A stretch of DNA of 40,260 nucleotides. It comes from Burkholderiales bacterium. GTDB lineage: Bacteria; Pseudomonadota; Gammaproteobacteria; Burkholderiales; Burkholderiaceae_E. Positions 2,794-24,235 of this stretch are shown here, in pieces; within the stretch, counting starts at the first letter, position 1; the number at the start of each line of letters is the position of its first letter. The translations under genes and the position numbers were made by a program. The stretch spans positions 1 to 40,260 of the forward strand of contig JAFKGG010000381.1 in assembly GCA_017307915.1 (NCBI GenBank). The letters are read 5' to 3'. The notes under the pieces were generated by a model. The model made no database searches and was not told the origin of the DNA. It saw only the letters and a list, made by a program, of their open reading frames with translations.

Positions 2794-2840
2794 CCGGAAG
2801 GTGTATCCGTCGTCTTTTCGTCACGTGGTAGGAGCACCTT

Positions 2841-3130
2841 CTATTCTTCGAGGATATCGGGCGCTCGTCTTCTCGTCGCCCGCGCAAGCGCCGCGATTGC
2901 AAGCACTAGCGGAATGAACGATACCCACAGCACCGTATTCCAGCCGTAGGCGGACAGCAGCCCACCGGAAGAGAACGATCCGCTGGCCTTCAAGCCGCCA
3001 GTATCGGCGTGGGCGCGAGCATGTTTCCGACGATGGAGCCGATGGCATAGATGACCACCGCGTTCGCGCCCGCCAATGCTTGCGCGACGGAAAGTCGCCA
3101 TATGTTCCCGCGCTGGATTTGTTCAGAAGA
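2841..3130 (-). pseudogene. MFS transporter remnant: N-terminus joined to C-terminus
   Basis: On the minus strand, one frame from about 3130 to 2990 reads IQRGNIWRLSVAQALAGANA followed by VVIYAIGSIVGNMLAP, which is the first membrane helix of a major facilitator permease. It stops soon after. A different frame immediately downstream reads SGGLLSAYGWNTVLWVSFIP and LVLAIAALAR up to a stop near 2841, which is the last helix of the same kind of protein. The roughly 300 residues between these ends are missing and the frames no longer match. An internal deletion plus frameshift explains this best. The joint lies near 2985-3000. No intact start or product is expected. Confidence 0.7.
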
Positions 3131-3147
3131 GGCGTGGAGATCGTCGT

Positions 3148-3470
3148 TCAGGGCGGCAGTGCTGTTGGGCTTTCGGTGATGCCGCGTAAGGCTGACGCCA
3201 CGGCGAACGGAACGTTCTGGCTGGTCAGGTACCACGAAAAAATGGCAGCACAGCCGACGATGACCATCACAACCCCGGTCAGCGCCACCGAATCGACGAA
3301 TAGCTGCGGCAGTTCATTGAGCTTCAGGTCGCGATAAACGAACATCGAGACGATCAGACCGTAGACGACTGCCACGACCGCGGCCTCGGTAATCGTGGCA
3401 ATACCGAAACGGATCGTGCCGAGAATCAGAATCGGCATCGCCAATGCCCATGAGGCGGCGCTGTCATTCA
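3148..3470 (-). pseudogene. dctM: TRAP transporter large permease (DctM) internal fragment
   Basis: The minus-strand frame contains ALAMPILILGTIRFGIATIT followed by EAAVVAVVYGLIVSMFVYRD and a helix with VALTGVVMVIVGCAAIFSWY. This is the conserved central region of the TRAP dicarboxylate transporter large subunit, where ALAMPxIILGGIxxGIFTPTEAAxxAVxYA is typical. Intact DctM is about 425 residues; only about 105 remain, with neither the normal start nor the normal end. The fragment ends against the MFS remnant, so this stretch holds at least two transporter genes reduced to scraps. The Met-initiated frame begins at 3501, but the recognisable similarity starts about ten codons later. Confidence 0.75.
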
Positions 3471-4018
3471 TCTGCTCGACCCGGCATTGCTGCAGGCGCA
3501 CCCCGTTCGTGTGATGAGGTTCGGGCGCGGCGTGTCGCGCTTCGAACTGACCATGGTGAATCGCAAGGTGGACGACGGCGATCGGGCGCTGGGGGCCGTG
3601 CGCGAGATGCTTGGCGAAGCGTTGAAAGTTCAGGGGAGCGAACGGTGACTGGGGTCAGACGGTCTTGCTGCGAGCTGGCGGCCGTTTGATTTCTTCGTCT
3701 ATCAGACTGGCTGTGTGCGCTTTTCGAGATAGCGCCTGAGCAGGCGTTCACTGGGTCGCTACAACCTAGTCGCTCTCCAGTAGCTGCGGCCGGCTGCGGC
3801 GCTGGTCGGTCTGCTGCGCGGCCGACCGTATCCCGGCTATTGGGCGCGGGGTTTTCATGTGGCCTGGCCATGCCAGCCGCGCCACACGGGCTGTTCGCCC
3901 ACCGATCCGGCAGCTCGCCAGCGCGAGCGGCAGCCGAAAGCATGCGCCAAACCCGGCCAAAGCCGTTTGACCAGGCCGCTTGTCATCCGGCTTGATACAG
4001 GCGGTTTCGACAGATTTA
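3471..4018. other. Gene-poor stretch between transporter relics and operon A
   Basis: I find no convincing gene here. A plus-strand frame ending at 3647 reads RVMRFGRGVSRFELTMVNRK and continues with a helical VREMLGEALKV tail before its stop. It looks like the C-terminal scrap of a real protein, but I do not recognise the family. From about 3650 to 3960 the DNA is GC-rich with frames open on both strands and no recognisable motif. Near 3970 composition drops sharply to AT-rich, which marks the start of the operon A control region. Confidence 0.4.
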
Positions 4019-4028
4019 TTGCATGCAA
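4019..4028. promoter_or_regulatory. 10-bp palindrome TTGCATGCAA, candidate regulator site
   Basis: TTGCATGCAA is perfectly self-complementary. Its size and TTG...CAA ends resemble operators of FadR/VanR-type GntR proteins (for example TTGTATACAA). It lies about 215 bp before the first gene of operon A, which encodes a GntR/FCD regulator of its own, so that protein is the natural candidate. A related but imperfect TTGCATATGAA overlaps the start of the regulator gene (11182-11192). The assignment is inference. Confidence 0.35.
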
Positions 4029-4084
4029 GAAAATAGAGAAAATAAAATCACAGGCAGGGTTGGCGAATTCAAGAAATACCATTT

Positions 4085-4124
4085 TAATTAGGGTAAACAC
4101 TAAGATTTTCACCCTAATTAGGGT
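4085..4124. promoter_or_regulatory. Two phased TAATTAGGGT elements, the second a perfect 14-bp palindrome
   Basis: TAATTAGGGT occurs at 4085-4094 and again at 4115-4124, exactly 30 bp apart, which is about three helical turns. The second copy sits inside ACCCTAATTAGGGT (4111-4124), a perfect palindrome; the first is a half-site extended by TTT. The copies lie in an AT-rich island 120-160 bp before the M20 gene. Phased identical elements in an intergenic control region look like a binding site for a dimeric regulator. A weak candidate promoter (TTGCGT at 4131, TCTAAA about 18 bp later) lies just downstream. The regulator is unknown. Confidence 0.5.
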
Positions 4125-4243
4125 GGTAAATTGCGTATTGAGAAGGAAATTCGATCTAAAGACAAAAGGCTTTAAAGAGTTAAGTCTTATTTTTGGATGC
4201 ATAGATAGTTAAAAAACTTCATGAAATTGCGGGCAGAATCGGC

Positions 4244-5413
4244 GTGAAAAACCAGATTTCGACAGATAAATCCTGGCTTCAAGAGCGGCTTCCCGGGATG
4301 CTGGCTCTGCTGGAGCAACTGGTGAACATCGACAGCGGCTCCTATGACGCTGCCGGCGTGAATCGGGTCGGCGAACTTCTCGCCGAGCAGCTTCATGCGA
4401 TGGGCTTTGCGTTGCGTCGAAGGACGGTGACCGGGCGTGGCGATCTGTTGGTCGCCGAACGTAGTTATGGCGGGCGTGGGCGGGTGGTCGTGCTGGGCCA
4501 CCTCGATACCGTGTGGCCCGAGGGCACGGCAGAGGAGTGGCCCTTTCAACGGCTCGATGAAACCCTTGCAACCGGGCCGGGGGTGGGTGACATGAAGGGC
4601 GGCTTGGTCATGGCGCTCCATGCCGTGCAGGCGTTGCAGGCTCGGGGCTTCGATGGTGTGGCCTCGGTGCGCTTCGTGCTGGTTCCCGACGAAGAACTGG
4701 GCAGCGCCGGCAGCCGCGCACTGATCGAAGAAGAGGTGGCCGACGCCGACGCCGTGCTCGTACTGGAACCCGGCCGCCCAGGGGGCGGTATCGTGACGGC
4801 GCGGGGTGCATTGGGCGCGTACTTCATCCACGCAACGGGCTGCAGCGCGCATTGCGCAAGCAACTATCACAAGGGTGCAAGCGCGCTGCGCGAGTTGGCG
4901 GTCAAAGTCGCGGCCCTGGATGGTTTGTCGAAACCCGACGAAGGCGTCGTCATCAATGTCGGGGTGTTGCAGGGCGGCACGGCGCGCCAGGTGGTGCCGG
5001 GCGAGGCACGCATGGACATCGATCTGCGGGCACGCACTCAGGCGCAGGCCGAGCAGTTGCAGGCCGATATCCGCCGCATTGCCGAAATGCGCAAGGATGA
5101 CCGAGTGCAGGTTCGCCTTAGCGGCGGCCTTACGCGCCCGGCCTTCGCTGCCGACGGTAACCGCGAGCTGATGCAGGCCGCGCAGACGCTGGCGCAGGCG
5201 CTCTCCGTGCCGGTATTTGAAGTACCGCCGGTCAGCGGAGGCTCGGACGGTAATTTCACGGCGGCATTGGGTATTCCTACCCTGGATGGCCTGGGGCCGA
5301 TTTGTTACGACATCTGCAGCCGGCAAGAAACCATCGAGGTGCAGAGTCTGGTGGATCGCGGCGCGCTGCTGGCTGGCCTGATCGATCTGATCCCGTCCTT
5401 CATCAAACACTGA
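4244..5413 (+). CDS. M20-family metallohydrolase (glutamate carboxypeptidase-like)
   Basis: This 389-residue protein has the two-zinc M20 fold, whose members hydrolyse amide bonds of peptides, N-acyl or N-carbamoyl amino acids. The ligand motifs are GHLDTVWP (His86, Asp88), GVGDMKGG (Asp116), PDEELGS (Glu150 catalytic base, Glu151) and VLEPGR (Glu175). The dimerisation-domain His is in GCSAHC. The usual last ligand, a His in a GPxxxxxH(T/S)R-type motif, seems to be Cys358 in GPICYDICSRQE, an unusual change at a metal site. The start is GTG with no clear ribosome site; TAG at 4200-4202 closes the frame upstream. As first gene of operon A it probably hydrolyses the imported substrate or a ring-opened amide, not a dietary peptide; that role is inferred. 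Confidence 0.88.
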   Translation: MKNQISTDKSWLQERLPGMLALLEQLVNIDSGSYDAAGVNRVGELLAEQLHAMGFALRRRTVTGRGDLLVAERSYGGRGRVVVLGHLDTVWPEGTAEEWPFQRLDETLATGPGVGDMKGGLVMALHAVQALQARGFDGVASVRFVLVPDEELGSAGSRALIEEEVADADAVLVLEPGRPGGGIVTARGALGAYFIHATGCSAHCASNYHKGASALRELAVKVAALDGLSKPDEGVVINVGVLQGGTARQVVPGEARMDIDLRARTQAQAEQLQADIRRIAEMRKDDRVQVRLSGGLTRPAFAADGNRELMQAAQTLAQALSVPVFEVPPVSGGSDGNFTAALGIPTLDGLGPICYDICSRQETIEVQSLVDRGALLAGLIDLIPSFIKH

Positions 5414-5471
5414 TGCGTCGTCGCGAACGCATCGAGATTTCCGTTATTCATTGCTCAGAAAGAGAATTCGT

Positions 5472-6914
5472 ATGGCACTCATGAATGGTGATCGGTACCG
5501 CGAATCGTTGAAAGACGGCCGGCAGGTGTTCATCAATGGCGAGCGGGTGGACGACGTGACCACCCACCCTGCCATCAAGCCGATGGTCGATACGATGGCT
5601 CGGCTCTACGACCTTCAGCACGACGAGCGATACAAGGACGTATTCGGGTTCGTCGATGAAGAAGGCGAGCTGTGCAGCCGCGTATATAAATCACCCGACA
5701 CCATTGACGATCTGCGCAACCGCCGGGAAATGACGGCAGCCATTCTCAACGAGGTCAGCCCGGTCATCGATCGCTTCGGCGATGAAACCGTGACCCCGTT
5801 GTTCGTGATGAAGGATCGGAAAGAGCTGCTCGACCAGTATGACGTTCGCTATTACAAGAACGCGATGAACTGGCTCAAGAAGCTGCAAAAGAAGAATTGG
5901 TTCCTGACCTCGGGCAATACCGACCCGAAAGGGGATCGCAGCAAGCAGCCCTATCAGCAAGATGATCTCGATATGTACACCCGCGTCGTCGAAGAGCGTG
6001 AAGACGGCATCGTCATCCGGGGGGCCAAGTTCGAAACCGGTGCTTGCTACGCCCATGCAGCCTTCGTCAAGCCGACAGTGGGCGCCTGGGTGCCTCAGAA
6101 CGCTGATTACGCCGTAGCCTTCATCGTCCCTTTGAATGCGCCCAACCTGCGGCACATCTGCCGGGCTCCGCACTACGAAAGCCCCAATGGGTTCGACAAG
6201 CCGCTGTCCTCGCGTTTCGATGAAATCGATACGCTGATCGTTTTCGATGACGTGCTGATCCCCTGGGAAAACGTCATCTTTTCGCGCAAACCCGAGTTGG
6301 CTGCGCTCATCCGGCAGGATCTGCACAACTGGGCGTCGCAAGGTTTCCTGAACCGGGCCTATGCGAAAGCCGATACGCTGGTCGGCACCGCGCTGTTGGT
6401 CACCCAGCATACCGGCCTTTCCGATGTCCCGGCGATCCGCGAAAAGGTCTCGAAGCTCATGGGCTATCGCGAAGCGATTCGCGCCTTCATTTCTGCGTCG
6501 GAAGCCGAACACCAGATCAGCGCCAGCGGCATGGTGATGCCCAATCTGTCGATTCAGAACGCAGGCCGTGTCTATGCCTCGTCCAATTTCTTCGACATGG
6601 TTCAGATTCTGCGAGATCTGATTGGTGGAACTGCGGTGATGCAACCCGACGAGGCGATGCTGAACAGTCCTGCGACCAGCGCTGATGTCAAGAAGTACTT
6701 CCGTATCGGCAATGTCTCGGCAGAGGAGCGGCTCAGGGCCTTGAATCTTGCCAATGAGCTGACCGCGTCCAGCTTTGCCGGGCGCATGTGCGCCTATGCG
6801 ATGTTTGCCGAGAGCCCGCCGATGGTTCAGGCGATGTCGCTCTATAACAGCTACGACCGAAAGGGGTCGCTAGAACGCGCCGCCAGGCTGGCTGGTTTGT
6901 CGGTTCAGAACTAA
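5472..6914 (+). CDS. HpaB-family FADH2-dependent monooxygenase, large component
   Basis: The 480-residue product matches 4-hydroxyphenylacetate 3-monooxygenase oxygenase (HpaB) and its relatives, the group D two-component flavin monooxygenases. It opens with MNGDRYRESLKDGRQVFING, the usual N-terminus, and carries WFLTSGNTDPKGDRSKQP, DGIVIRGAKFETGACYAHAA, DDVLIPWENVIFSR and a C-terminal IGNVSAEERLRALNLANELT region typical of the family. Members hydroxylate phenols or N-heterocycles such as pyrrole-2-carboxylate, using FADH2 from a separate reductase; the matching HpaC-type reductase is the last gene of this operon (12956). I chose ATG 5472 because AGAAAGAG sits just upstream; ATG 5481 is also possible. 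The substrate is unknown, and the neighbours do not resemble a homoprotocatechuate cluster. Confidence 0.92.
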   Translation: MALMNGDRYRESLKDGRQVFINGERVDDVTTHPAIKPMVDTMARLYDLQHDERYKDVFGFVDEEGELCSRVYKSPDTIDDLRNRREMTAAILNEVSPVIDRFGDETVTPLFVMKDRKELLDQYDVRYYKNAMNWLKKLQKKNWFLTSGNTDPKGDRSKQPYQQDDLDMYTRVVEEREDGIVIRGAKFETGACYAHAAFVKPTVGAWVPQNADYAVAFIVPLNAPNLRHICRAPHYESPNGFDKPLSSRFDEIDTLIVFDDVLIPWENVIFSRKPELAALIRQDLHNWASQGFLNRAYAKADTLVGTALLVTQHTGLSDVPAIREKVSKLMGYREAIRAFISASEAEHQISASGMVMPNLSIQNAGRVYASSNFFDMVQILRDLIGGTAVMQPDEAMLNSPATSADVKKYFRIGNVSAEERLRALNLANELTASSFAGRMCAYAMFAESPPMVQAMSLYNSYDRKGSLERAARLAGLSVQN

Positions 6915-6938
6915 GCGATCCTTTTTTCTCGAAATCCA

Positions 6939-8051
6939 ATGCCCGAGTTCCAAAGAGGTCAGCATGGCGTGGGTCTGGCGATAGACCACGTCAGTAAGCA
7001 ATACGGTGACTTCCAGGCGCTCAGTGATATCCATTTCACTGTGCCGCCTGGCGCGTTGCTCACGCTGCTGGGGCCGAGCGGCTGCGGCAAGTCGACCTTG
7101 CTGCGCATCATCGCCGGATTCGTTGGGGCGACCGGTGGGCGTGTTCTGCTCGATGGCGTCGACGTGGCGGATGTGCCGCCTTTCCTGCGCGAAACGGCAA
7201 TGGTCTTCCAGAACTATGCGCTCTTTCCGCACATGACCGTGCTCGAAAACGTGATGTTCGGGCTCAAGATGCGCAAGGTGCCGAAAGCCGCCGCCCGCGA
7301 TCGCGCGATGCAAAGCCTGGAAATGGTGAAGCTGACGCACCTGGCCGACCGGGTTCCGGCGCAGCTTTCGGGCGGGCAGCAACAACGCGCCGCGTTGGCG
7401 CGGGCGCTGGTCACTGACCCGAAGATTCTGCTTCTCGATGAGCCTTTTGGCGCGCTGGACAAGAACCTGCGCGAAGAAATGCAAACCGAGCTGCGCAAGC
7501 TTCAACAGCGCGTGGGTGTCACCACCGTATGCGTCACCCATGATCAGCAAGAGGCCATGGCGATCTCCGACTATGTCGCGGTGATGAACCACGGCCGCCT
7601 TGAACAATTCGGCGCGCCGCTTGAAATCTACGATACCCCCCGGTCCCGCTTCGTTTCCACGTTTATCGGCAACTCGAATGTCTTGCAAGCTCGCGTGGCG
7701 GAATCGGATGGCCGCTGGTGCCGTGTAGAGCTTGCCGATGGCACGTTTGCCCGAGTGGCGCAGCGTGGCGCTGCGAGCATCGGCCAGCAAACGGAAATCG
7801 CCGTCAGGCCGGGCGCGATGCGTGCCTTGCCGCCCGGCGTCGAGGCCAGAAACGATGAGGCCTTTGTTCTTCAAGGGCGTGTCGGATACGGCGTCAATCT
7901 CGGCAATGTCGTCCACTATGAAGTCGAGGTACCGACGTTCGGCATCTTGATGGTCGAGCTGCCTCGCAGTCAGAGTGATGATCCATGGCGGCTTGGCGAG
8001 TCGATCCGGCTGGTGGCGGCCGTCGGCGATTGCGTGATGCTGGAGCACTGA
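6939..8051 (+). CDS. ABC importer ATPase, spermidine/putrescine (PotA) type
   Basis: The 370-residue ATPase energises the importer encoded by the next genes. Walker A is GPSGCGKST (residues 45-53), the signature LSGGQ is at 143-147, Walker B is ILLLDEP (163-169) and the switch histidine follows in CVTHDQQEA (His201). After about residue 235 comes a C-terminal regulatory OB-type (TOBE) domain, as in PotA and FbpC. An in-frame GTG at 6969, preceded by AAGAGGT, could be the true start and would remove ten residues that lie before the first conserved segment LAIDHVSKQYG. The gene follows the monooxygenase by 24 bp and is followed by the first permease after 1 bp, so they are co-transcribed. Confidence 0.93.
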   Translation: MPEFQRGQHGVGLAIDHVSKQYGDFQALSDIHFTVPPGALLTLLGPSGCGKSTLLRIIAGFVGATGGRVLLDGVDVADVPPFLRETAMVFQNYALFPHMTVLENVMFGLKMRKVPKAAARDRAMQSLEMVKLTHLADRVPAQLSGGQQQRAALARALVTDPKILLLDEPFGALDKNLREEMQTELRKLQQRVGVTTVCVTHDQQEAMAISDYVAVMNHGRLEQFGAPLEIYDTPRSRFVSTFIGNSNVLQARVAESDGRWCRVELADGTFARVAQRGAASIGQQTEIAVRPGAMRALPPGVEARNDEAFVLQGRVGYGVNLGNVVHYEVEVPTFGILMVELPRSQSDDPWRLGESIRLVAAVGDCVMLEH

Positions 8052-8052
8052 C

Positions 8053-8937
8053 ATGGCGGCTCATCGCGATCCGCCCGGTCATCGCGCCTCGCTCTGGAAT
8101 TTCGCCCCCGCGTTCGTGGTGATGGCGACCTTCTTCAGTGCCTATGCCGTATTCGTTCATACGAGTTTCCTGCAAGCCATTCCAGGGACGGCGCAGTTGG
8201 GCGACAAGATCACGCTGTCCAACTATCTCAAGTACTTCACTTCGGAAGTGGAGTTGAGGATTCTCCGCGAGACGATATGGATCTCTGCGAAGATCATGGT
8301 TTTGGCCTTTCTGCTCGGCTACCCGGTCGCCTACATCATCGTGCGTGCGCAATCGAACTGGCTGCGCAACCTGCTGCTGGCGTCGATCGTCATGACGTTT
8401 CTGTCGGGGTCAGTGACCCGCGCCTACGCATGGCTGGTGCTGCTGGGAAATAGCGGCGTCATCAATACACTGCTGATCAAGCTCTCGGCGATCGCCAAGC
8501 CAGTCCAACTCGTCTACAACGAGGTCGGTGTTTTCGTGGCGCTGCTGCACTTCGTCTTGCCGTTCTTCGTGTTGACGATGATGGGGCCTCTGAAGAACGT
8601 GAACCGCGCATACGAGGAAGCTGCGATCAATCTGGGTGCATCGCGTGTGCAGACCTTCCTGCGCGTGACCTTGCCGCTGTCGTTGCCAGGTATCGTTGCT
8701 GCCAGCTCGCTCGCTTTCGCCATGGCCCTCAGTGCGTTCATCTTCCCGCTGGTCCTGGGCGGCGGGCGCGTCCGGATGGTGGCCAACAGCATCTACGACC
8801 ACATCTTCACCAGTTTCGATTTTCCGTTTGCGGCTGCAACGGCTTGCATCTTCCTGGTGATCTCGCTGTCTTTCGTCCGAGCCTTTACTGCGCTTCAAAA
8901 CGTCGCCATGCGCCACCTTTATCCCAAGAGTGCGTAA
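8053..8937 (+). CDS. ABC importer permease, PotB type
   Basis: This 294-residue inner-membrane protein has about six hydrophobic helices, beginning with FAPAFVVMATFFSAYAVFVH. The cytoplasmic EAA loop reads YEEAAINLGASRVQTFLRVT, followed by LPLSLPGI, the segment that docks on the ATPase. This architecture is that of the PotB/HisM-like permeases of polyamine, putrescine and related cation importers. The start codon comes one base after the ATPase stop and the stop codon overlaps the next start (TAATG), indicating translational coupling. The transported compound is unknown; polyamine-type importers in catabolic operons often carry other amines or amino-acid-like molecules. Confidence 0.92.
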   Translation: MAAHRDPPGHRASLWNFAPAFVVMATFFSAYAVFVHTSFLQAIPGTAQLGDKITLSNYLKYFTSEVELRILRETIWISAKIMVLAFLLGYPVAYIIVRAQSNWLRNLLLASIVMTFLSGSVTRAYAWLVLLGNSGVINTLLIKLSAIAKPVQLVYNEVGVFVALLHFVLPFFVLTMMGPLKNVNRAYEEAAINLGASRVQTFLRVTLPLSLPGIVAASSLAFAMALSAFIFPLVLGGGRVRMVANSIYDHIFTSFDFPFAAATACIFLVISLSFVRAFTALQNVAMRHLYPKSA

Positions 8938-9740
8938 TGCGTAAAGACTATGTGGTGTACTCGCCGGCCACGCTTGCGGTGGCGCTTCTGACGGCGGCCT
9001 TCATGCTCGGGCCGGTGATCTTCATTGTCCTGTATGCGTTCAACCCGAATGCCTATTTCACCTGGCCGGTCGAAAGCCTGTCGCTCAAATGGTTTCGTAA
9101 CTTCTTCGAGAATGAACGCTTCGCCAGCGCGTTCTGGGTCAGCCTGAAGATGGTTGCCATCGTTACGCCAGTGAGTCTGGCGGTGGCAGTGCCCACTGCC
9201 TATGCACTGGTGAGACGCGAGTTCGTCGGGCGCGAACTGATCAATACCCTGGCCATGTCGCCGCTGGTGATTCCCGGTGTGGTGAGCGGCATCGCGTTCC
9301 TGATCTATCTGAGCGCCATTGGCATCGGCCCGGGCTTCTGGGGTCTGGTGATCGGCATGACGTGTTTCAGCCTGCCGTTCGCGGTTCGTGCCTTGGTCGC
9401 CAACATGCACGGCCTGAGGCCCGAACTGGAAGAGGTCGCCCGCAACCTCGGCGCCAGCGATTGGGCAGTGTTCCGGCGCATCGTCTTGCCGCAGTTGCGC
9501 CCAGGCCTGCTGGCCGGCGGCACTTTCGTGTTCGTGGAAGCCATCGATAACTTCTCCATCGCCGTCTTTCTTTCGACCACCGAGGTGTCACCCTTGCCGG
9601 TGGAAGGCTACAGCTACATCCGGGATTTCGATGATCCCACCGTAGCGGCGCTGGCAGTGGTGCTGATCGTCATGTCGACCGCTTTGGTGATGCTCACGAG
9701 CCGGCTCGTCGGGTTGAATCGGATGTTCCATGTCGAATGA
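8937..9740 (+). CDS. ABC importer permease, PotC type
   Basis: The second permease has 267 residues starting at the ATG that overlaps the previous stop; a longer reading from 8844 would overlap the first permease by about 90 bp and is unlikely. It shows the PotC pattern: a first helix LAVALLTAAFMLGPVIFIVL, the extracytoplasmic YFTWPVESLSLKWFRNFFEN segment typical of PotC proteins, and the EAA loop LEEVARNLGASDWAVFRRIV followed by LPQLRPG. It pairs with the PotB-type subunit to form the channel. It is followed after 39 bp by the DUF1028 gene. Confidence 0.92.
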   Translation: MRKDYVVYSPATLAVALLTAAFMLGPVIFIVLYAFNPNAYFTWPVESLSLKWFRNFFENERFASAFWVSLKMVAIVTPVSLAVAVPTAYALVRREFVGRELINTLAMSPLVIPGVVSGIAFLIYLSAIGIGPGFWGLVIGMTCFSLPFAVRALVANMHGLRPELEEVARNLGASDWAVFRRIVLPQLRPGLLAGGTFVFVEAIDNFSIAVFLSTTEVSPLPVEGYSYIRDFDDPTVAALAVVLIVMSTALVMLTSRLVGLNRMFHVE

Positions 9741-9779
9741 GCCGACGCATTCCTACCCTTGAGTGACTGGACATCCCAC

Positions 9780-10427
9780 ATGACGTTTTCGATCGTTGCC
9801 CGCTGTGAAACCTCCGGCCAGGTCGGGATGGCTGTGACCTCGTCCAGCCTTTGCGTCGCCAGCCGCTGCCTGTGGACCCGTTGGGATGCCGGCGTGGTCG
9901 CGACGCAGAATCTGACCGATCCCAGCCTGGGGCCGCTGGGCCTGGATCTGATGGCGAGCGGTCGTAGCGCGGAGCAGGCTTTGGCGATGCTGGTCGCGGG
10001 CGATCCGGGCCACCCGTATCGGCAGCTTCAGCTCATGGACCGGAAGGGGGGGGTAGCTCAGTACACGGGTTCGAAGGCTTTGCCGATCGTCGCTGGCGCT
10101 CGTGGCCGGGAGTGCGCGGCGGCCGGCAATCTTCTCGCCGATGCCGGCGTTCCCCAGGCGATGGTCGCTGCCTTCGAAGGCGCTCCCGATCGGCCCTTGG
10201 TCGAGCGGCTGCTGGCCGCATTGCAGGCGGGCCTGGAAGCGGGCGGGGAAGAACGTGTTCTGCGATCCGCCGGAGTCCAGGTCAGCGATTGCCAGAGCTG
10301 GCCGGTCGTCGACCTGCGGATCGATGACCGGCCCGAACCGATCGCAGCGCTGGCCTCGCTCTGGGCAGTCTATGAACCGCTGATGCCGGGCTATGTATCC
10401 CGTGCCACGCGCCCTGATCTGTATTGA
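9780..10427 (+). CDS. DUF1028 family protein, putative Ntn-type hydrolase
   Basis: The start at ATG 9780 gives MTFSIVARC, the usual opening of DUF1028 proteins; the in-frame TTG at 9759 would add a non-conserved tail. Further family features are GMAVTSSSLCVASRC, a VVATQNLTDPSLGPLGLDLM segment, and a YTGSKALPIVAGA segment in the middle. The length of 215 residues is normal. The family is thought to adopt an N-terminal-nucleophile hydrolase-like fold, but its reaction is not established to my knowledge. It is often found in catabolic operons. Here it lies between the importer and a GST, so a hydrolytic or isomerising step on the pathway intermediate is plausible. An eight-G run at 10046-10053 lies inside the gene. 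Confidence 0.88.
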   Translation: MTFSIVARCETSGQVGMAVTSSSLCVASRCLWTRWDAGVVATQNLTDPSLGPLGLDLMASGRSAEQALAMLVAGDPGHPYRQLQLMDRKGGVAQYTGSKALPIVAGARGRECAAAGNLLADAGVPQAMVAAFEGAPDRPLVERLLAALQAGLEAGGEERVLRSAGVQVSDCQSWPVVDLRIDDRPEPIAALASLWAVYEPLMPGYVSRATRPDLY

Positions 10428-10440
10428 GAGTGGATCGATC

Positions 10441-11064
10441 ATGAAGCTGCTTTATTCGAGTTCTTCGCCGTTCGTTCGCAAAGTGACCTTGGTGGCGCAG
10501 GCGCTGGGATTGGAAGGGCGTATCGAACGCTTGCCTAGTGCCGCGAATCCGTTGAAGCGCGACCCTCGGATCACGGCCCACAACCCTCTCGGCAAAGTTC
10601 CCTGCCTGATCACCGACGACGGTCTGGCGGTGATCGATTCCAAGGTGATCGTCGAGTATCTGTGCGCAATGGCCCCTGACGACAGGGTACTGCCCAGGCA
10701 GGGCGCCGAGCGCTGGATTGCGCTTCGTCAACAGGCCATTGCCGACGGTGCGATCGAGGCGGCGGTCGGCCTGCGCTATGAAGAGGCTGTTCGGCCGGCC
10801 GATCGTCGCTGGGCCGAGTGGGGCGATGGCTTGATGAGCAAGATCGACGCTGCGCTGCTGGTGCTGGAGCAGGAATTCGTACCGCCTCGCGCCGAGGGCG
10901 TGCTCGGGGTGGGTACGCTGGCTACCGTCGCCTTGCTGGGTTATCTCGATTTTCGTTTCGCCGACAGGCAATGGCGAAAAGAGCGTCCCGCATTGGCTGC
11001 TGCGTACGAGCTGGTGCTGAAACGGGAAGATGTTCGGGCGAGTGAACCGTTTGTCGCGACGTGA
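10441..11064 (+). CDS. Glutathione S-transferase-like protein
   Basis: The 207-residue product opens with MKLLYSSSSPFVRKVTLVAQ, the thioredoxin-fold start of GSTs with a serine-rich active site. It contains NPLGKVPCLITDDGLAVIDS with the cis-Pro and the Ser that bind glutathione, then an all-helical C-terminal domain. In catabolic operons GSTs may isomerise maleyl-type products, remove glutathione adducts or open ethers; which applies here is unknown. ATG 10441 is chosen because the longer frame from 10393 overlaps the DUF1028 gene and lacks family similarity. The gap to DUF1028 is 13 bp. Confidence 0.9.
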   Translation: MKLLYSSSSPFVRKVTLVAQALGLEGRIERLPSAANPLKRDPRITAHNPLGKVPCLITDDGLAVIDSKVIVEYLCAMAPDDRVLPRQGAERWIALRQQAIADGAIEAAVGLRYEEAVRPADRRWAEWGDGLMSKIDAALLVLEQEFVPPRAEGVLGVGTLATVALLGYLDFRFADRQWRKERPALAAAYELVLKREDVRASEPFVAT

Positions 11065-11187
11065 CCAGCGCGATGCGGGCAATCGGCGTCGCGGTGTCCG
11101 AAAAAGAAGGCACGATGGAGCGATGCCGATTTTGCCCCTACGATTGCACCGCAACCGTCATCAGCCTGAAGCGAGCGCATTTTGCAT

Positions 11188-11913
11188 ATGAACCGAGAAA
11201 ACGCATTGATTCCCGCCGAATCGAGTGATTCTGAATCGTCGCCGGAAAAGCCGCCGGTGCCTGTGGTGCGCGTCGCCGACCAGATTCACCGGCGTCTGCG
11301 ACAAGCCATCCTCGGTGGTGAACTGCCGGCGCGTACGCGCCTGATCGAACTGGAGCTGGCAGCGAAACTGGAAGTGAGCCGTACTCCCGTTCGTGAAGCG
11401 ATTTCCCGGCTGGTCAGCGACCTCTTGGTGAAACCGCTGCCTCATGGCGGCGTGGAAGTCGTGGACATGTCGCAGGAGCTCGAGGACATCTTCTCGATCC
11501 GGGAAGCCTTGGAGGGAACTGCGGCCCGATTGGCGGCAGAGCGGATCGCCCCCGAAGAGGTCGACAACCTTCAGGATCTGCTCGGCCGTGAACGGGCGCT
11601 GCCGCTCGATGACTACGCCAAACGTGCCGAGCTCAACAACATATTCCACACGGCAGTGCTGCATGCCGCACGCGCTCCCCGCCTGACTTTGATGGTGGAG
11701 GGGTTTCGTGAGTTTTTCCTGCATGAATCGCAGCTGGTCCGCTACGGCAAACGCCATACCGAGTCGGCGCTCAAGCAGCACCAGGACATCATCGACGCGC
11801 TGCGGGCGCGCGATGGCAAGCGCGCCGAGAAAGTCGTTCGCAACCACTTGCGGCAGAGCATGGCGCGCATGCGTGACAGTTCCATTTCGCAGTCCGTTTC
11901 TTTGACCCTGTAA
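11188..11913 (+). CDS. GntR-family transcriptional regulator, FadR/FCD type
   Basis: The 241-residue protein has a winged helix-turn-helix at about residues 28-95 (VADQIHRRLRQAILGGELPA, then LAAKLEVSRTPVREAISRLV) and a C-terminal all-helical FCD domain (about 100-225). The FCD domain has His residues at LNNIFHTAVLHAA, KQHQDII and RNHLRQSM that usually bind a metal and the small-molecule ligand. FCD regulators normally repress a catabolic operon until an acid-type inducer binds. It sits inside operon A, so it probably controls the operon. ATG 11188 is preferred to the TTG two codons earlier. About 120 bp precede it with no clear promoter. Confidence 0.92.
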   Translation: MNRENALIPAESSDSESSPEKPPVPVVRVADQIHRRLRQAILGGELPARTRLIELELAAKLEVSRTPVREAISRLVSDLLVKPLPHGGVEVVDMSQELEDIFSIREALEGTAARLAAERIAPEEVDNLQDLLGRERALPLDDYAKRAELNNIFHTAVLHAARAPRLTLMVEGFREFFLHESQLVRYGKRHTESALKQHQDIIDALRARDGKRAEKVVRNHLRQSMARMRDSSISQSVSLTL

Positions 11914-11930
11914 CTTCAGGAGATTCGATC

Positions 11931-12947
11931 GTGAGAGCTGTTTTGAACTTGCGGCTTGCCGCTGCAACCCTTGCCCTGGGTCTTTGTGCCTCCGCCTCGG
12001 CTCAGCAGCCGCAGTCGATCAGCGTCATGATCTGGGGGGCGACCTGGCAATCCAGCATTCAAACGCTGAGCAAGGAGTTCACCGACAAGACCGGGATTCG
12101 CGTCAACCTGGTGACCCAGGCTTCATCGGGCGAGGGTTTGGTCAAGCTGCAGGCGATGAAGGCCAAGCCGACCGTCGACGTATGGTTCACCACCGCTTCG
12201 GTGGCTGAACGCGCGGTTACGGATGCTGATCTCTTCGCTCCCTTGCCCAAGGACAAAATTCCGAATATCGCCAACGTGACGCCCGGCGCGGCGACATCGC
12301 ATTACACCGCGGTTTATGGTTATCCGATGTCGATCGTCTACCGCACGGATCTGATCAAGTCCAACATTACGCAATGGACCGATCTCTGGAAGGTCGACGA
12401 ACTGGACAAGAAGCTGTCCATCCCGGCCATGTCGATGTATCAGGGGCGGTCGCTCATGATGGCATCGATGGCAAACGGCGGCTCGGCGACCGATGACGAA
12501 AAGGGATTCGAGATGCTCGCCAAGCTCAAGCCCAAAGTCGCGATGTTCTACAGCTCGGATGCGCAAGTGCGCACAGCGATGTCGCAGGGCGAAATAGCGA
12601 TCATGATGGGAACGCCGGCGGCGGCCAGGCGCGTCGCTGATGCCGGTCGGCCGGTCAAGGTCGTGAGCCCCCGGCCGTCGATCATGAACTACGACGTAGT
12701 GACCATCGTCAAGAGCGGCAAGGAGGATCTTGCGGCCCAGTACGTCAACTTCCTGATCGAACGCTCGAACAACCAAAGGATCGCCCAACTCACAAACATG
12801 GCGCCGGTGGTGGCGGGTGCTCAGATGCCGGCTGAGCTGGCCGCTCAGATGCCGAAACCGGAGGATATGGTGGTGCTGGATGAAAAGTGGGTCAATTCGA
12901 ACATGGCCAAATGGGTGGAGCGTTTCAACAAGGAAATCGCCAAGTAA
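11931..12947 (+). CDS. Periplasmic substrate-binding protein of the operon A ABC importer
   Basis: A GTG start with AGGAG seven bases upstream gives a 338-residue protein. Its Sec signal peptide (LAAATLALGLCASASAQQ, cleavage probably after ASA) precedes a mature extracellular-solute-binding fold of the PotD/Fe3+-receptor class (bacterial solute-binding family 1). Features include ISVMIWGATWQSSIQTLSKE near the mature N-terminus and VDVWFTTASVAERAV. It should deliver the substrate to the two permeases. It lies apart from the permease genes, after the regulator, but in the same orientation with a 17-bp gap. The ligand cannot be predicted from sequence alone. Confidence 0.9.
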   Translation: MRAVLNLRLAAATLALGLCASASAQQPQSISVMIWGATWQSSIQTLSKEFTDKTGIRVNLVTQASSGEGLVKLQAMKAKPTVDVWFTTASVAERAVTDADLFAPLPKDKIPNIANVTPGAATSHYTAVYGYPMSIVYRTDLIKSNITQWTDLWKVDELDKKLSIPAMSMYQGRSLMMASMANGGSATDDEKGFEMLAKLKPKVAMFYSSDAQVRTAMSQGEIAIMMGTPAAARRVADAGRPVKVVSPRPSIMNYDVVTIVKSGKEDLAAQYVNFLIERSNNQRIAQLTNMAPVVAGAQMPAELAAQMPKPEDMVVLDEKWVNSNMAKWVERFNKEIAK

Positions 12948-12955
12948 AGCTTGTG

Positions 12956-13474
12956 ATGAGCGCGCGCGAATTGATTGAAGAGGGTGATGCTGCGACGGAT
13001 GGCCGGGGTTTCCGGCGCTGTCTGGGGCAGTTTGCGACGGGCGTTACGGTGATGACCACCCGGCACGAGGGCCAGTACGTCGGCATGGCCGTCAACTCCT
13101 TCGCCGCGCTGTCGCTCGAACCGCCCTTGGTGCTGTGGTCGATTCGGCGCCATTCCGCGATGGCCCCGGCATTTGCGCAAGCCGGGCGATTCGTCGTCAA
13201 TGTGCTGGCGAGCGATCAGGCGGACGTTGCCGAGCTCTTCGCCACTCCGGGTATCGACAAGTTTGCCGTGGCCCAATGGCGTAAGGACGCTGACGACGAT
13301 GCGATCTTGAACTGCACGATTGCAACGATGGCATGCGAACTCGACCGGGTACTCGACGGCGGTGACCACCTCATCTTGATTGGCCGTGTTCGCCACTTCG
13401 CGCGATACGATGGTGAGCCCTTGTTGTTCTCGCAGGGGCGATACGCTGCTGGAATCGGGCCACTTCGTTCGTGA
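12956..13474 (+). CDS. HpaC-type flavin reductase
   Basis: The 172-residue product has the flavin-reductase-like FMN/FAD-binding domain. The key pattern is RRCLGQFATGVTVMTTRHEG, then GMAVNSFAALSLEPPLVLWS, then FVVNVLASDQ and a late DHLILIGRVRHF. It reduces free flavin with NAD(P)H and supplies it to a two-component monooxygenase, here most likely the HpaB homologue at 5472. The start is ATG 12956 or the adjacent GTG 12953, shortly after the receptor stop. It is the last gene of operon A. The frame +1 to its C-terminus stays open beyond the stop with protein-like sequence (see findings), so a recent frameshift near the end is possible. Confidence 0.9.
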   Translation: MSARELIEEGDAATDGRGFRRCLGQFATGVTVMTTRHEGQYVGMAVNSFAALSLEPPLVLWSIRRHSAMAPAFAQAGRFVVNVLASDQADVAELFATPGIDKFAVAQWRKDADDDAILNCTIATMACELDRVLDGGDHLILIGRVRHFARYDGEPLLFSQGRYAAGIGPLRS

Positions 13475-13563
13475 TATGGCGGCCGCCAATCGGCAACGGG
13501 TGATCGAGTTCGAGCGCCGCTGGTTCGAAGGGTTACTGCAGGCCGATATCCAGACGAAACGAA

Positions 13564-13591
13564 AACGCCCAACCGCGAACGGTTGGGCGTT
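13564..13591 (-). terminator. Intrinsic terminator after the catalase gene
   Basis: AACGCCCAACC and GGTTGGGCGTT form a perfect 11-bp stem around a six-base loop (13575-13580). On the minus strand the stem is followed by TTTTCGTTTCG, a T-rich tail, 23 bp after the catalase stop. Read from the plus strand it lies about 90 bp after the flavin reductase and could also weakly stop operon A. Confidence 0.85.
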
Positions 13592-16504: not shown

Positions 16505-17027
16505 CGGATAAGGATATGCTCGCCGAAATCAATACGATCTGACTTTTGACTGTTATTCGGCTCTCAGGCGCTGCCCCATTCCGGTTGTATCGGCAATCCA
16601 GGGCAGGTGCGCCGGCTTCGGCGCGGCTTTGGCAGCCTTGAGCGATGTGTCGTTCGCAGCGGCGTCGGCGACATTCAGTATTCCCGAAATGGCGCACAAC
16701 ATCATGCCGACAATGGTGATGTCGGCGCTCTTCGATCGGATGAACCGAAACGCGATCCTCCATATGGCCTATTCGACCGAGGCAATCTCCGCTGAGGATG
16801 CGATGAAATACGGGCTGGTCAGTCGAGTGGTATCCGATGGGGAAATGATGGGCGCTGCCGAGGGGATTTGCGAGCGGATCGCTCGCTATCCAAAAGCAGC
16901 AGCAATGGGATTGAAAGAGTATCTGCGCCACGCGCCCTCAGTTCATGAGCATGCGGCGATTGACTACGCGCGAAGCCTCCACGCAATGGTCAACACTTCG
17001 AGCGAAATGAATTCGAACAGGAAGTGA
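16505..17027 (+). pseudogene. Enoyl-CoA hydratase/isomerase, 5'-truncated and frameshifted
   Basis: At 16508-16537 one frame reads KDMLAEINTI, a crotonase-type segment, and then hits a stop. A second frame from about 16546 continues with CPIPVVSAIQGRCAGFGAAL and ALSDVSFAAASATFSIPEMA, then AISAEDAMKYGLVSRVV to a natural end at 17027. The first 60-80 residues of the enzyme are missing and a frameshift lies near 16540. The oxyanion-hole region (CAGFGAAL) and the C-terminal helices survive. Since the coxM scrap is fused directly in front, one deletion probably removed the end of coxM, anything between, and the start of this gene. Confidence 0.8.
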
Positions 17028-18969: not shown

Positions 18970-20436
18970 TCAGGAAGCGTCGCTCACGAGGATGTTCACC
19001 GACTTCTCTTCGGTGTAGCCAAGAATGTCGGCCAAACCCTCTTCGCGACCGACGCCGCTGTTCTTCATCCCGCCATAGGGCATGTTTCTATAGTGCGTGC
19101 CCACGCCGTTCACCCACACATACCCGGCCTGGACAGCGGCCGCGACGCGAAGTGCGCGGTCGATATCGCGGCTCCAGACGGCTGCAGTCAGGCCGAATTC
19201 GACCGAGTTGGCGATGTCGATCGCCTGTTCCTCGGTATCGAAGCGCATGATCGACAGCACTGGCCCGAATACCTCTTCGCGGGCCAGTCGCATTTCAGGC
19301 CTGACGTCTCGAAAAACGGTGGGCATCACCCAGTATCCCTTCTCGAACTGTCGCCCTTCGGGCCTCTTGCCACCGGCGATGAGTTCGGCGCCTTCCTGGG
19401 GGCCGAGTTCGATGTAGGACATGACCTTTCGGTAATGCCCCAGAGAATTGATCGGCCCCATGCTCGAGCTGGCATCGAGAGGGTGACCGAGCTTGATGCG
19501 CGCCACACGCTCCAGGACCAATGCGGTGACTTCCTGATAGATGTCTTTGTGCAAGAGAAGGCGGCTTGTTGAGCCGCACGATTGCCCCTGCCAGCTGAAA
19601 TTCATGCCTGCAACCGCCGCATCGGCGACGCGGTGCAAGTCGACATCGGGAAAGGCAATCAGAGGGTTTTTTCCGCCCAGCTCCAGCGACACGTGTTTGA
19701 CTGCAGTCTCTGCCGCCGCCTTCTGGATTGCGCGACCGGCCGGTACCGAGCCAATGAAGGCAATACGCTTGACGTCGGGATGACGCACGAGCGCCTCGCC
19801 GGTTTCGCGGCCGCCGGTGACGATGTTCACGACGCCTGCCGGAAGGTGTTCAGCGCACAGTTCTCCCAAAAGGGAGGCGGAGAGCGGACTTTGTTCCGAC
19901 GGCTTGATCACCATCGTATTGCCGCTGATCAGAACCGATGAAATTCGGGCGGCGGCGAAACCGAATGGGTGATTGAAGGCGACGATGCGTCCCACGACGC
20001 CGTACGGAACACGAGTGGTGAAATGGAGATTGTTTCCAACGCCTGGTACAGAGAACCCCTTTACTTCGTAGCCATATCCGGCGGCGAAGCGGATTCGCTC
20101 CGCAGCGCTTAGCACGTCCTTGTGCATCGGCCCTAGCAGGTTGCCAGTGTCCCTCGCTTCGAGCCGGGCGATCTTCGCTGCGCTCTTTTCGATCGCGTCG
20201 GCCAGCTTGTTCAAGCGCGCGACTCGATCGGGAATCGAGGTTCGTGCCCAGCCGATTTGAGCCCGCTTTGCGGCCGCGACCGCGGCGTTCATGTCAGCAG
20301 CCGAACCCAAGGGCATGCGACCGATGACGCTTTCGTCGGCCGGATCGATCGAGTCCAGCCACGCGCCTGATTCGCTGGCAAGCATCTGGCCGTCGATCAA
20401 CATCCGGCCGTCGAAGAAGCTGTCGGAGTTATCCAT
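18970..20436 (-). CDS. NAD(P)-dependent aldehyde dehydrogenase
   Basis: The 488-residue enzyme belongs to the aldehyde dehydrogenase superfamily and oxidises an aldehyde to its acid. The Glu motif is VSLELGGKNPLI, and the catalytic Cys is in WQGQSCGSTSR (Cys287 counted from ATG 20436). The cofactor-binding FIGSVPAGRAIQKAAAE and the C-terminal EEVFGPVLSIMRF and PYGGMKNSGVGREEG blocks are present. ATG 20436, with GGTGGA just upstream, is preferred to the in-frame GTG 20448. Placed after the GMC oxidoreductase (15 bp gap), it most likely takes the aldehyde that enzyme makes and produces a carboxylate. Confidence 0.95.
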   Translation of the reverse strand: MDNSDSFFDGRMLIDGQMLASESGAWLDSIDPADESVIGRMPLGSAADMNAAVAAAKRAQIGWARTSIPDRVARLNKLADAIEKSAAKIARLEARDTGNLLGPMHKDVLSAAERIRFAAGYGYEVKGFSVPGVGNNLHFTTRVPYGVVGRIVAFNHPFGFAAARISSVLISGNTMVIKPSEQSPLSASLLGELCAEHLPAGVVNIVTGGRETGEALVRHPDVKRIAFIGSVPAGRAIQKAAAETAVKHVSLELGGKNPLIAFPDVDLHRVADAAVAGMNFSWQGQSCGSTSRLLLHKDIYQEVTALVLERVARIKLGHPLDASSSMGPINSLGHYRKVMSYIELGPQEGAELIAGGKRPEGRQFEKGYWVMPTVFRDVRPEMRLAREEVFGPVLSIMRFDTEEQAIDIANSVEFGLTAAVWSRDIDRALRVAAAVQAGYVWVNGVGTHYRNMPYGGMKNSGVGREEGLADILGYTEEKSVNILVSDAS

Positions 20437-20451
20437 ATGTCCACCCACTAG

Positions 20452-22056
20452 TTAGTTGCCCGCCGCAATCCACTCTGAGGCTCGTTCGGCAAGCATCAGA
20501 ACCGCCGCATTGATATGGGCCGAAGGCAGATCCGGCATGACAGATGCATCGACGACTCGAAGCCCTTGAAATCCGTTGACGCGAAACCTCGGATCGAGCA
20601 CTGCCTGCGCATCTGTGCCCATGCGACAGGTGCCGCCTGGATGATTGGCCGTGATCGCGGTCTTGCGTATCCAGGCATCGATGTGTGCGTCATCCTTCAC
20701 CGTGGGGCCGGGCGCCAATTCGGTTCCTCTGAACTCGTCCATCGCGGGTGTAGCGCACAGTTCGCGCCCGAGCTTGAAAGCCTCACGCAGGGTTGCAAGA
20801 TCATGAGGATCGGCCAGAAGGTTGTACTGGATCCGGGGCGCGGCAAACGGATCGCTGGAACGAAGCTCGACTTGACCGCGACTTCTGGGGTGCAGCAGCG
20901 TTGGGCGCAGGCCGAATGCGTCGGCTGTTGGGCGGCGAACGGCGGGAAACCAGACTCGAGCGCCCAAGGGAGCGTTGCGGAACATGTACTCGATATCGGG
21001 CACCTCCGAATCCGGATGCACCTTCACGAAGGCATGCAAGCCGGACGGAAGCGCGGTTGCCGGCCCGGTTCCGAAAAGGTAAGCACGCGTCATCGCGCGT
21101 GCCATTCTGTCGAATCGCAGCAGCGATTGAAACGGGCCCGAGGAACGCCTCGACCACATCATCTGAACAGCGGGGTGATCCTGCAGATTCTGCCCGACCG
21201 GCAAGTCGGCGAGCACCTGTACACCCACACTCCTGAGATGCTCTGCAGGCCCGATGCCGGATAGCATCAGCAGCTTGGGGCTGTCAAAGGTGCCGGCGCA
21301 CAACAGTACTTCTGCGGCTGCGTGCGCCGTGTTCACTTGGCCGCGATGGAGAAACTTCACGCCAACCGCTCGCTGCTGGTCGAAGATCAGGTTCAGCGCG
21401 TACGCGCCGGTCAAGATCGTGAGATTTTTTCGCCCGCGAATCGGGTTGAGATACGCGACGTCTGCGGATGATCGACGACCGGATCCCACCGCGAACTGGC
21501 TTGGCCCAAAGCCTTCTTGCCGCTCGGCGTTGTAGTCTTCATTGATCGGGAAATTCTTTCGCTTTGCCGCTTCCAGCCAGGCGTGCGTCAATGGATCGCG
21601 AAAGCTGGAGTATTGAACGCAAACCGGGCCGTCGCCGCCGCGGTACTCGTTCTCGCCCAGTTGCCAGCGTTCAGAGCGCTTGAAATAGGGGAGCACCTCA
21701 GCGTAAGACCACCCCTGAGCACCACCGGCTGCCCATCGATCGTAGTCGCGTGAGTTGCCGCGGGTGTGCGCCATCATGTTCACCGACGAGGAGCCACCCA
21801 GGAGCTTGCCTCGCATTGAATCAATGACTCGGCCGCCCAGACCGGGTTCCGGCTCGCTTTTATAGCCCCAGCCGAACATCCGGCGCTCGTAGATCATCCC
21901 CGCACCGAGCGGGATGCTGATCAGCGGGTGATGCACGCGGCCTCCCGCCTCGAGCAGCAGAACGCGCGAGCGCGGATCGGTGCTGAGGCGGTTGGCTAAT
22001 ACGCACCCGGCAGAGCCGCCGCCGACGACGATGTAGTCGACGTCAAATCGAGCCAT
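20452..22056 (-). CDS. GMC-family FAD-dependent alcohol oxidoreductase
   Basis: The 534-residue flavoprotein matches choline dehydrogenase and alcohol-oxidase-like GMC enzymes. The FAD-binding start is DYIVVGGGSAGCVLANRLST, followed by GGRVIDSMRGKLLGGSSSVN (GMC signature 1) and LLCAGTFDSPKLLMLSGIGP (signature 2). The catalytic His region is ITANHPGGTCRMGTD, and the C-terminus has DASVMPDLPSAHINAAVLML. It has no signal peptide. Members oxidise primary alcohols including polyethylene glycol and aryl alcohols; here it probably turns an alcohol side chain of the substrate into the aldehyde used by the next gene product. Confidence 0.95.
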   Translation of the reverse strand: MARFDVDYIVVGGGSAGCVLANRLSTDPRSRVLLLEAGGRVHHPLISIPLGAGMIYERRMFGWGYKSEPEPGLGGRVIDSMRGKLLGGSSSVNMMAHTRGNSRDYDRWAAGGAQGWSYAEVLPYFKRSERWQLGENEYRGGDGPVCVQYSSFRDPLTHAWLEAAKRKNFPINEDYNAERQEGFGPSQFAVGSGRRSSADVAYLNPIRGRKNLTILTGAYALNLIFDQQRAVGVKFLHRGQVNTAHAAAEVLLCAGTFDSPKLLMLSGIGPAEHLRSVGVQVLADLPVGQNLQDHPAVQMMWSRRSSGPFQSLLRFDRMARAMTRAYLFGTGPATALPSGLHAFVKVHPDSEVPDIEYMFRNAPLGARVWFPAVRRPTADAFGLRPTLLHPRSRGQVELRSSDPFAAPRIQYNLLADPHDLATLREAFKLGRELCATPAMDEFRGTELAPGPTVKDDAHIDAWIRKTAITANHPGGTCRMGTDAQAVLDPRFRVNGFQGLRVVDASVMPDLPSAHINAAVLMLAERASEWIAAGN

Positions 22057-22098
22057 GGCAGGACGGCCGTGTCAGATGAATCTCGGAAATGAGGTGCA

Positions 22099-23199: not shown

Positions 23200-23226
23200 G
23201 GCGGTTTCCAATTGATTGGCCGCGAT

Positions 23227-24207: not shown

Positions 24208-24235
24208 TGGAGATCCTTGGATGATGTGAGGCTGG

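Follow-up and report, generated by a model that had tools for sequence, protein, structure and literature searches.

The 40,260-base stretch of Burkholderiales DNA analyzed here (the window) is an entire contig from an assembly of 521 contigs that is 94% complete. Between positions 4244 and 13474 it carries ten genes, all on the + strand, in which an HpaB-fold monooxygenase and a flavin reductase are combined with an M20 metallohydrolase, a DUF1028 protein, a glutathione S-transferase (GST), a GntR/FCD regulator and four parts of an ABC importer. The question raised by this locus is which compound such an operon would import and degrade. The comparisons below make it probable that the operon serves the uptake and degradation of an acid of the imidazole type, either imidazole-4-acetate itself or a close analogue, and works like the Hin pathway of Pseudomonas, from which it nevertheless stands apart.

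The gene set is conserved in a patchy branch of HpaB proteins

When 84,980 species genomes were scanned for relatives of the window HpaB, the best 80 of 587 were kept. Six of these are orthologues, 52–83% identical to the window protein (Parapusillimonas granuli, Alcaligenaceae CAII-56, an NC10 metagenome-assembled genome (MAG), Rhodovarius crocodyli, a Zavarzinia MAG and Allopusillimonas ginsengisoli), and a seventh orthologous locus was found on a Paracoccaceae plasmid (54% identical). In a quickly built HpaB tree, for which SH-aLRT was the only support measure, the window clade formed one group (support 90) next to a sister clade (support 99), with some long branches flagged, including that of locus L040. 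The branch is patchy, since among 399 genomes of the same order no match exceeded 43% identity outside the window's own genome.

All seven orthologous loci carry a DUF1028 gene, six the same M20 and six the Pot permeases. A GntR match was present in 6/7 (weakest 27% identity), a class II aldolase in 4/7, a GST in 2/7 and a flavin reductase in 3/7 by BLAST; L165 has a further one under the annotation rutF. In the nearest orthologue (P. granuli), the flavin reductase is only 34% identical to that of the window and occupies a different operon position. At six control loci around other HpaB relatives (one on a contig of just 8.2 kb), DUF1028, RidA, M20, flavin reductase, Pot permease, HinK-like LysR and GST were each found in 0/6 above thresholds, and two of these loci carried a lone ABC ATPase (41%) or GntR (27%). 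Because the orthologous loci retain DUF1028, M20 and Pot permeases in these proportions and the controls lack these partners, the gene set is, judged by gene content, not a product of chance. Lack of conservation outside the window genome, one of the two outcomes that would have refuted the sequence-only reading, did not occur. The same counts bear on the view that the ten genes form no single pathway and merely place a generic polyamine-type importer beside unrelated detoxification genes. Presence of the GST in just three of the eight window-clade operons (counting the window) agrees with that view, as do the differing gene orders of the orthologues and their variable aldolase and NtaA genes, but the recurrence of HpaB with DUF1028, M20 and the importer (the latter two each 6/7) in Alcaligenaceae and alphaproteobacteria, on a plasmid and in an NC10 MAG makes it quite improbable.

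The monooxygenase departs from 4-hydroxyphenylacetate hydroxylases

The oxygenase component of the flavin-dependent monooxygenase (5472..6914, +) contains both an HpaB_N domain (PF11794, 296.6 bits) and an HpaB domain (PF03241, 171 bits), and its best solved relatives are Thermus HpaB (2yyg, 3e-57) and a chlorophenol 4-monooxygenase (3hwc, 1.4e-54). With the two-component flavin monooxygenases HpaB and TftD it shares the fold family, near full-length homology and a separate flavin reductase. These domains and relatives would favor an operon for phenolic compounds, with HpaB acting as a hydroxylase of the 4-hydroxyphenylacetate (4-HPA) or chlorophenol type. However, the window protein reached only 272 bits on the 4-HPA model TIGR02309 (equivalog cut-off 480.2) and 181.9 bits on TIGR02310 (equivalog cut-off 885.2). 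R100, Y104 and H142 of Thermus HpaB, which we take to be the phenol-contacting residues, align to R99, E103 and S145 of the window protein in an alignment counted by hand (numbering from position 5478; Arg codon 5772-5774, Glu 5784-5786, Ser 5910-5912), which places Glu and Ser at the Tyr104 and His142 positions. This signature is nearly fixed among 88 related HpaBs (8 from the window clade and 80 from the sister clade), with R99 in 88/88, E103 in 87/88 (one D) and S145 in 88/88. In seven outgroup paralogues, the E103 position holds F or L and the S145 position H or E.

By profile score and by active-site residues, the window HpaB is thus not a 4-HPA hydroxylase, in agreement with the sequence-only reading that preceded this analysis; the HpaB tree included no characterized 4-HPA or chlorophenol enzymes. 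A 4-HPA/phenol pathway was discarded on the profile scores and the changed active site, and with DUF1028 co-conserved with HpaB and no ring-cleavage gene among the ten by Pfam, a phenolic operon is highly improbable. We suggest instead that HpaB enzymes with the R-E-S signature are two-component imidazole monooxygenases. Above cut-off, the window genome yields a single DUF1028 match and five HpaB_N matches, which means that none of its HpaB proteins but the one in this operon adjoins a DUF1028.

DUF1028 and M20 as candidate hydrolases of the pathway

The DUF1028 protein (9780..10427, +; PF06267, 223.6 bits, cut-off 26.2) was modeled with a mean pLDDT of 97.3, and the model matched 2imh (5e-20, TM 0.86, 37% identity), proteasome subunits and HslV (1e-4 to 1e-3) and, only at 6e-3 to 3e-2, PurO and asparaginase, i.e., it has an N-terminal nucleophile (Ntn) hydrolase fold. 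Thr2 is present in 41/41 DUF1028 rows and directly follows Met1 in 39 of them, while two Bacillota members carry four extra residues before the conserved Thr; in the window this predicted nucleophile is encoded at 9783-9785. The window protein is 38–54% identical to the sister-clade DUF1028 rows. 2imh (SPO2555, itself a DUF1028 protein) has the same fold and N-terminal Thr, and in PMC9140057 it is described as a seventh Ntn-hydrolase subfamily that is uncharacterized and lacks peer-reviewed data. Literature searches for DUF1028, PF06267, SPO2555 and 2IMH returned no reported function. Whereas SPO2555 has no function assigned there, the window DUF1028 can be assigned a proposed role: the model points to an orphan Thr-type Ntn hydrolase, putatively a HinH-like ring-opening amidohydrolase. 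This would provide a concrete, testable function for a family with a solved structure and no role in the literature found.

The M20 hydrolase (4244..5413, +) contains both Peptidase_M20 (PF01546, 107.5 bits, cut-off 24.6) and M20_dimer (PF07687) domains. Its nearest NCBIfam model is the glutamate carboxypeptidase PRK06133 (NF004788), from which it differs in scoring below the cut-off (232 bits against 349) and in lacking the canonical C-terminal His, a metal ligand in M20 enzymes. In 7/7 window-clade M20s (window, L035, L036, L038, L039, L040 and L165) an invariant Cys-Ser stands there instead (Cys358-Ser359 in the window, 5315-5320, with the Cys358 codon at 5315-5317), and two HinG-like M20s in the same alignment both keep the His. 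Only the loss of His is claimed, because the alignment puts His opposite Ser and a gap shift of one residue would put Cys there. The M20 may hydrolyze an N-acyl (formyl) acidic amino acid.

Pseudomonas loci suggest a link between DUF1028 and imidazole-4-acetate

According to PMC8231116, histamine is converted to imidazole-4-acetate by HinC and HinD and imidazole-4-acetate to aspartic acid by hinFLHG, the LysR-type regulator HinK, whose structure has been solved, senses imidazole-4-acetate, and hin genes are common across Pseudomonas. HinF is described in PMC6467879 as an FAD-monooxygenase (EC 1.14.13.5), HinL as an enamine deaminase, HinH as an amidase, HinG as an amidase (EC 3.5.1.8) and HinI as an aspartate ammonia-lyase. 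Of 149 genomes from the genus to which Pseudomonas sp. UMAB-08 belongs, 104 matched the DUF1028 of that strain (101 at ≥66% identity and 3 via a 35–37% paralogue only). Beside DUF1028 at the 30 best-scoring of these loci, which are not a random draw and in which neighbors were sought within 1.5 kb, a flavin-containing monooxygenase (FMO) was found in 24 and HpaB in 1. The order FMO-RidA-DUF1028-M20 on one strand, which is that of hinFLHG, was seen in 17/30. Among eight longer Pseudomonas stretches, a HinK-like LysR was present in four (L202, L203, L204 and L206) and an aldehyde dehydrogenase with an aminotransferase in four (L202-L205). A Caballeronia plasmid record is annotated in the same order, as NAD(P)/FAD-dependent oxidoreductase, RidA, DUF1028 and argE. 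Because of this gene order and these neighbors, the natural reading is that FMO, RidA, DUF1028 and M20 would correspond to HinF, HinL, HinH and HinG, respectively. The idea that HinF is an HpaB in Pseudomonas generally was rejected on the 24-to-1 count of FMO over HpaB beside the HinH-type DUF1028.

Locus L094 of Pseudomonas sp. UMAB-08 was compared with L202. Their RidA (87% identical), DUF1028 (88%), M20 (76%) and LysR (87%) are orthologous, as are the aldehyde dehydrogenase (82%), the aminotransferase (89%) and the solute receptor (82%), but L094 has HpaB and a flavin reductase at the place of the FMO in L202. No FMO match at E≤1e-80 was found in the L094 genome. The LysR of L094 matched PDB entries 3fzv and 6m5f at ~1e-175; both match labels read "probable transcriptional regulator", and 6m5f is, we presume, HinK. 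In a DUF1028 tree of 73 rows (11 FMO-linked), accounting for the FMO/HpaB label takes 3 changes, of which at least 2 are forced by well-supported branches. L094 and L202 look like a case in nature where an operon has swapped its monooxygenase for an unrelated enzyme, and the pathway concerned handles a breakdown product of histamine that bacteria use as food and also sense. No HpaB-type imidazoleacetate monooxygenase was found in the open literature searched, including passages of PMC6467879, PMC8231116 and PMC8921697.

Sister-clade neighborhoods

The 75 sister-clade loci contain RidA (67), DUF1028 (55), flavin reductase (41), a HinK-like LysR (>90 bits; 38) and an ArgE-type M20 (20). Among the 47 with at least 20 kb of sequence, DUF1028 was present in 39; of the other eight, seven come from genomes with DUF1028 elsewhere and one (L062) from a genome with none. 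A class III aminotransferase cluster was found in 16/86 loci and an aldehyde dehydrogenase cluster in 14/86 (the L094 members of both were confirmed), an aspartate ammonia-lyase cluster in 5/86 (one member confirmed by NCBIfam) and a carbamoylase in 9/86, all Bacillota, of which the one profiled member is of the allantoate/ErtE type. A sister-type HpaB of Pseudomonas dw_358 (L065) lies with a window-like importer (receptor 40% and ATPase 48% identical), which joins the two branches.

HutI (imidazolonepropionase) was found in 5/86 loci, two of which belong to the window clade, 3' of DUF1028 in L039 and upstream in L036, giving a hint of imidazolone chemistry within that clade. A replacement of DUF1028 by HutI in L096 was considered and weakened, as the DUF1028 of that genome sits on another contig. 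Adjoining HutI in L036, the gene at 2834-4480 is urocanase-like, its best model being S-methyl thiourocanate hydratase (829 bits, below the cut-off of 880). An ergothioneine/thiourocanate route was set aside, with this urocanase-like gene in only 1/86 loci.

Five loci (L047, L055, L052, L067 and L111) carry two sister-clade HpaB genes each, with a DUF1028 in the same stretch, and an FAD synthetase gene lies near the Bacillota HpaB in L041, L042, L043, L047, L054, L055, L057 and L167. L141 (G760) has M20, DUF1028 and RidA at 6309-13527 near a PotA-type ATPase, a GST (43% identical to that of the window) and an open reading frame resembling 2-hydroxyacid dehydrogenases; there is no HpaB in this stretch, and the sole FMO match of that genome lies elsewhere.

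A proposed pathway that resembles Hin

In the pathway that we propose for the window operon, in which the substrate and every reaction are postulated, a PotABCD-type importer would bring the compound into the cell, and HpaB, given reduced flavin by the flavin reductase, would hydroxylate the imidazole ring to an imidazolone. DUF1028, as a Thr-type Ntn hydrolase, would open the ring amide to yield an N-formimino amino acid, ammonia would be lost next (the step of RidA in Hin, to which none of the ten genes is assigned), and M20 would then remove the N-formyl group to leave an acidic amino acid such as aspartate, with GntR regulating the operon. The classical route runs through imidazolone acetate, formiminoaspartate and formylaspartate to aspartate. 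Import of a charged N-heterocycle, hydroxylation by HpaB, opening by DUF1028 and cleavage by M20 had all been anticipated in the sequence-only reading, and these steps gained support from the comparison. That reading also had the GST as a conjectural isomerase. As to the ring, imidazole appears likelier than either pyrrole or pyridine, given that the genes of the sister module are ordered as in hinFLHG and in some genomes lie beside hinK/hinD/hinC homologues. The sequence-only reading knew of no described pathway with this set; Hin is a described pathway of this logic, with an unrelated monooxygenase.

Hin and the window operon would share a flavin monooxygenase as first enzyme, a DUF1028 at the place of HinH and an M20 hydrolase. 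The window departs from Hin in having HpaB and a flavin reductase at the place of the predicted FMO, in the lack of an operon RidA, in the subfamily of its M20, which is devoid of the canonical His, and in its PotABCD importer and GntR, where Hin has an APC permease and LysR. No FMO match at E≤1e-80 was found in the window genome, the operon having HpaB instead. By its gene content, the operon works like Hin but falls outside it on three operon features (FMO, RidA and LysR). The Rut pyrimidine pathway (RutA/B/C/F) follows a similar logic, in that a flavin monooxygenase and reductase open an N-heterocycle and an amidohydrolase and a RidA-type enzyme act next, but its enzyme families differ, RutA being luciferase-like and RutB isochorismatase-like, and it is not known to include a DUF1028 or an M20.

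Several observations weigh against an imidazole acid as the substrate or against the link to Hin. No RidA is encoded within 4244-13474, and the best HinL-like match of the genome is 40% identical. Within the window, to which the search for HinK was confined, the operon has no LysR, its regulator being of the GntR/FCD type, and the M20 is only 27% identical to a protein resembling HinG, the N-formylaspartate deformylase. Because RidA and LysR are absent from the operon and the M20 is of another subfamily, the substrate may differ from imidazole-4-acetate. Uptake differs as well, as PMC8231116 describes an APC permease for histamine in Hin. No HutI above cut-off was found in the window genome, and the window clade is not a single group in the DUF1028 tree. 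The assignments of HinF as FMO and HinH as DUF1028 would follow from gene order and not from Hin sequences, and the Pseudomonas loci are not uniform: 7/30 have the FMO on the opposite strand with no RidA within 1.5 kb (3.7 kb viewed), 5/30 have neither FMO nor HpaB within 1.5 kb of DUF1028, and the HinK-like LysR is missing from 4/8 longer stretches. Finally, of 14 genomes that carry an HpaB locus, 3 contain an FMO match as well at E≤1e-80 (72%, 64% and 39% identity), so HpaB and FMO need not be interchangeable everywhere.

Some of these points would fit the same enzyme logic applied to another N-heterocycle, such as pyrrole-2-carboxylate or a hydantoin- or pyrimidine-like compound, with HpaB hydroxylating the ring, DUF1028 opening the lactam and M20 deacylating the product. 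Neither the HinL-type RidA nor the ArgE-type M20 seen in the Hin-like module occurs in the window clade, the carbamoylase at Bacillota sister loci points to ureido products, too, within the family, and some orthologues have a class II aldolase, a 2-hydroxyacid dehydrogenase or an NtaA-type monooxygenase. A literature search on pyrrole-2-carboxylate gave no decisive result, and this compound was kept within the alternative. However, imidazole acetate is the only compound that was found to anchor the sister module in a pathway, and the HutI neighbors indicate imidazolone chemistry, which leaves another N-heterocycle unlikely, and an imidazole-type acid is preferred. Beyond the window, we tentatively propose, with somewhat less than even confidence, that in Pseudomonadota, Bacillota, Actinomycetota and others the HpaB fold provides a widespread second kind of imidazole-acid monooxygenase, two-component and not related to HinF, that DUF1028 is the imidazolone-ring opener (HinH), and that the window represents a separate branch with its own importer and an altered M20 metal site, acting on an imidazole acid outside the described pathways. 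On this view, many of the proteins that now carry the annotation 4-hydroxyphenylacetate hydroxylase would really degrade heterocycles.

Operon layout and surroundings

All ten genes scored above a Pfam cut-off in a profile search, and the small gaps and overlaps noted earlier were confirmed, with junctions of −1 to 123 bases (in order 58, 24, 1, −1, 39, 13, 123, 17 and 8). Starts were refined by reading the DNA together with an orthologue for HpaB (5472), PotC (8937), DUF1028 (9780), GST (10441), GntR (11188) and the flavin reductase (12956). The importer comprises, by profile matches, a PotA/PhnT-type ATPase (6939..8051, +), a PotB-type permease (8053..8937, +) and a PotC-type permease (8937..9740, +), together with an SBP_bac_8 periplasmic receptor (11931..12947, +; PF13416, 102.7 bits) whose best solved relative is 4edp (1.5e-26); its earlier description as polyamine-type holds as a transporter family name only. 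The GST (10441..11064, +; PF13409, 63.4 bits, cut-off 25) has PRK10357 (NF007682) as its nearest NCBIfam model (98 bits, below the cut-off of 181), and the GntR/FCD regulator (11188..11913, +) matches PF07729 and PF00392. The flavin reductase, the probable partner of HpaB (12956..13474, +; PF01613, 132.4 bits), is nearest to the p-hydroxyphenylacetate hydroxylase reductase and HsaB models (NF045919, 157 bits; NF045630, 153.8 bits), both below cut-off.

A search of Rfam gave 0 matches over the gathering score. Promoter-like sites were fewer than expected by chance (1 versus a shuffled mean of 3.0) and terminator-like sites near chance (10 versus 9.0), the strongest of the latter being a 12-pair hairpin at 13564-13591, just 3' of the operon and before a convergent catalase gene. 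Elsewhere in the window, 3151-3501 (−) and 16629-17027 (+) match TRAP DctM and enoyl-CoA hydratase profiles only over their middle or end and are likely decayed genes. A separate cluster at 18970-25219 (−) contains an aldehyde dehydrogenase, a GMC oxidoreductase, a VanA-type Rieske oxygenase and a TctC receptor, and at the contig edge (39267-40229, −) a protein with AbiJ_NTD3 and Abi_C domains resembles phage-defense proteins.

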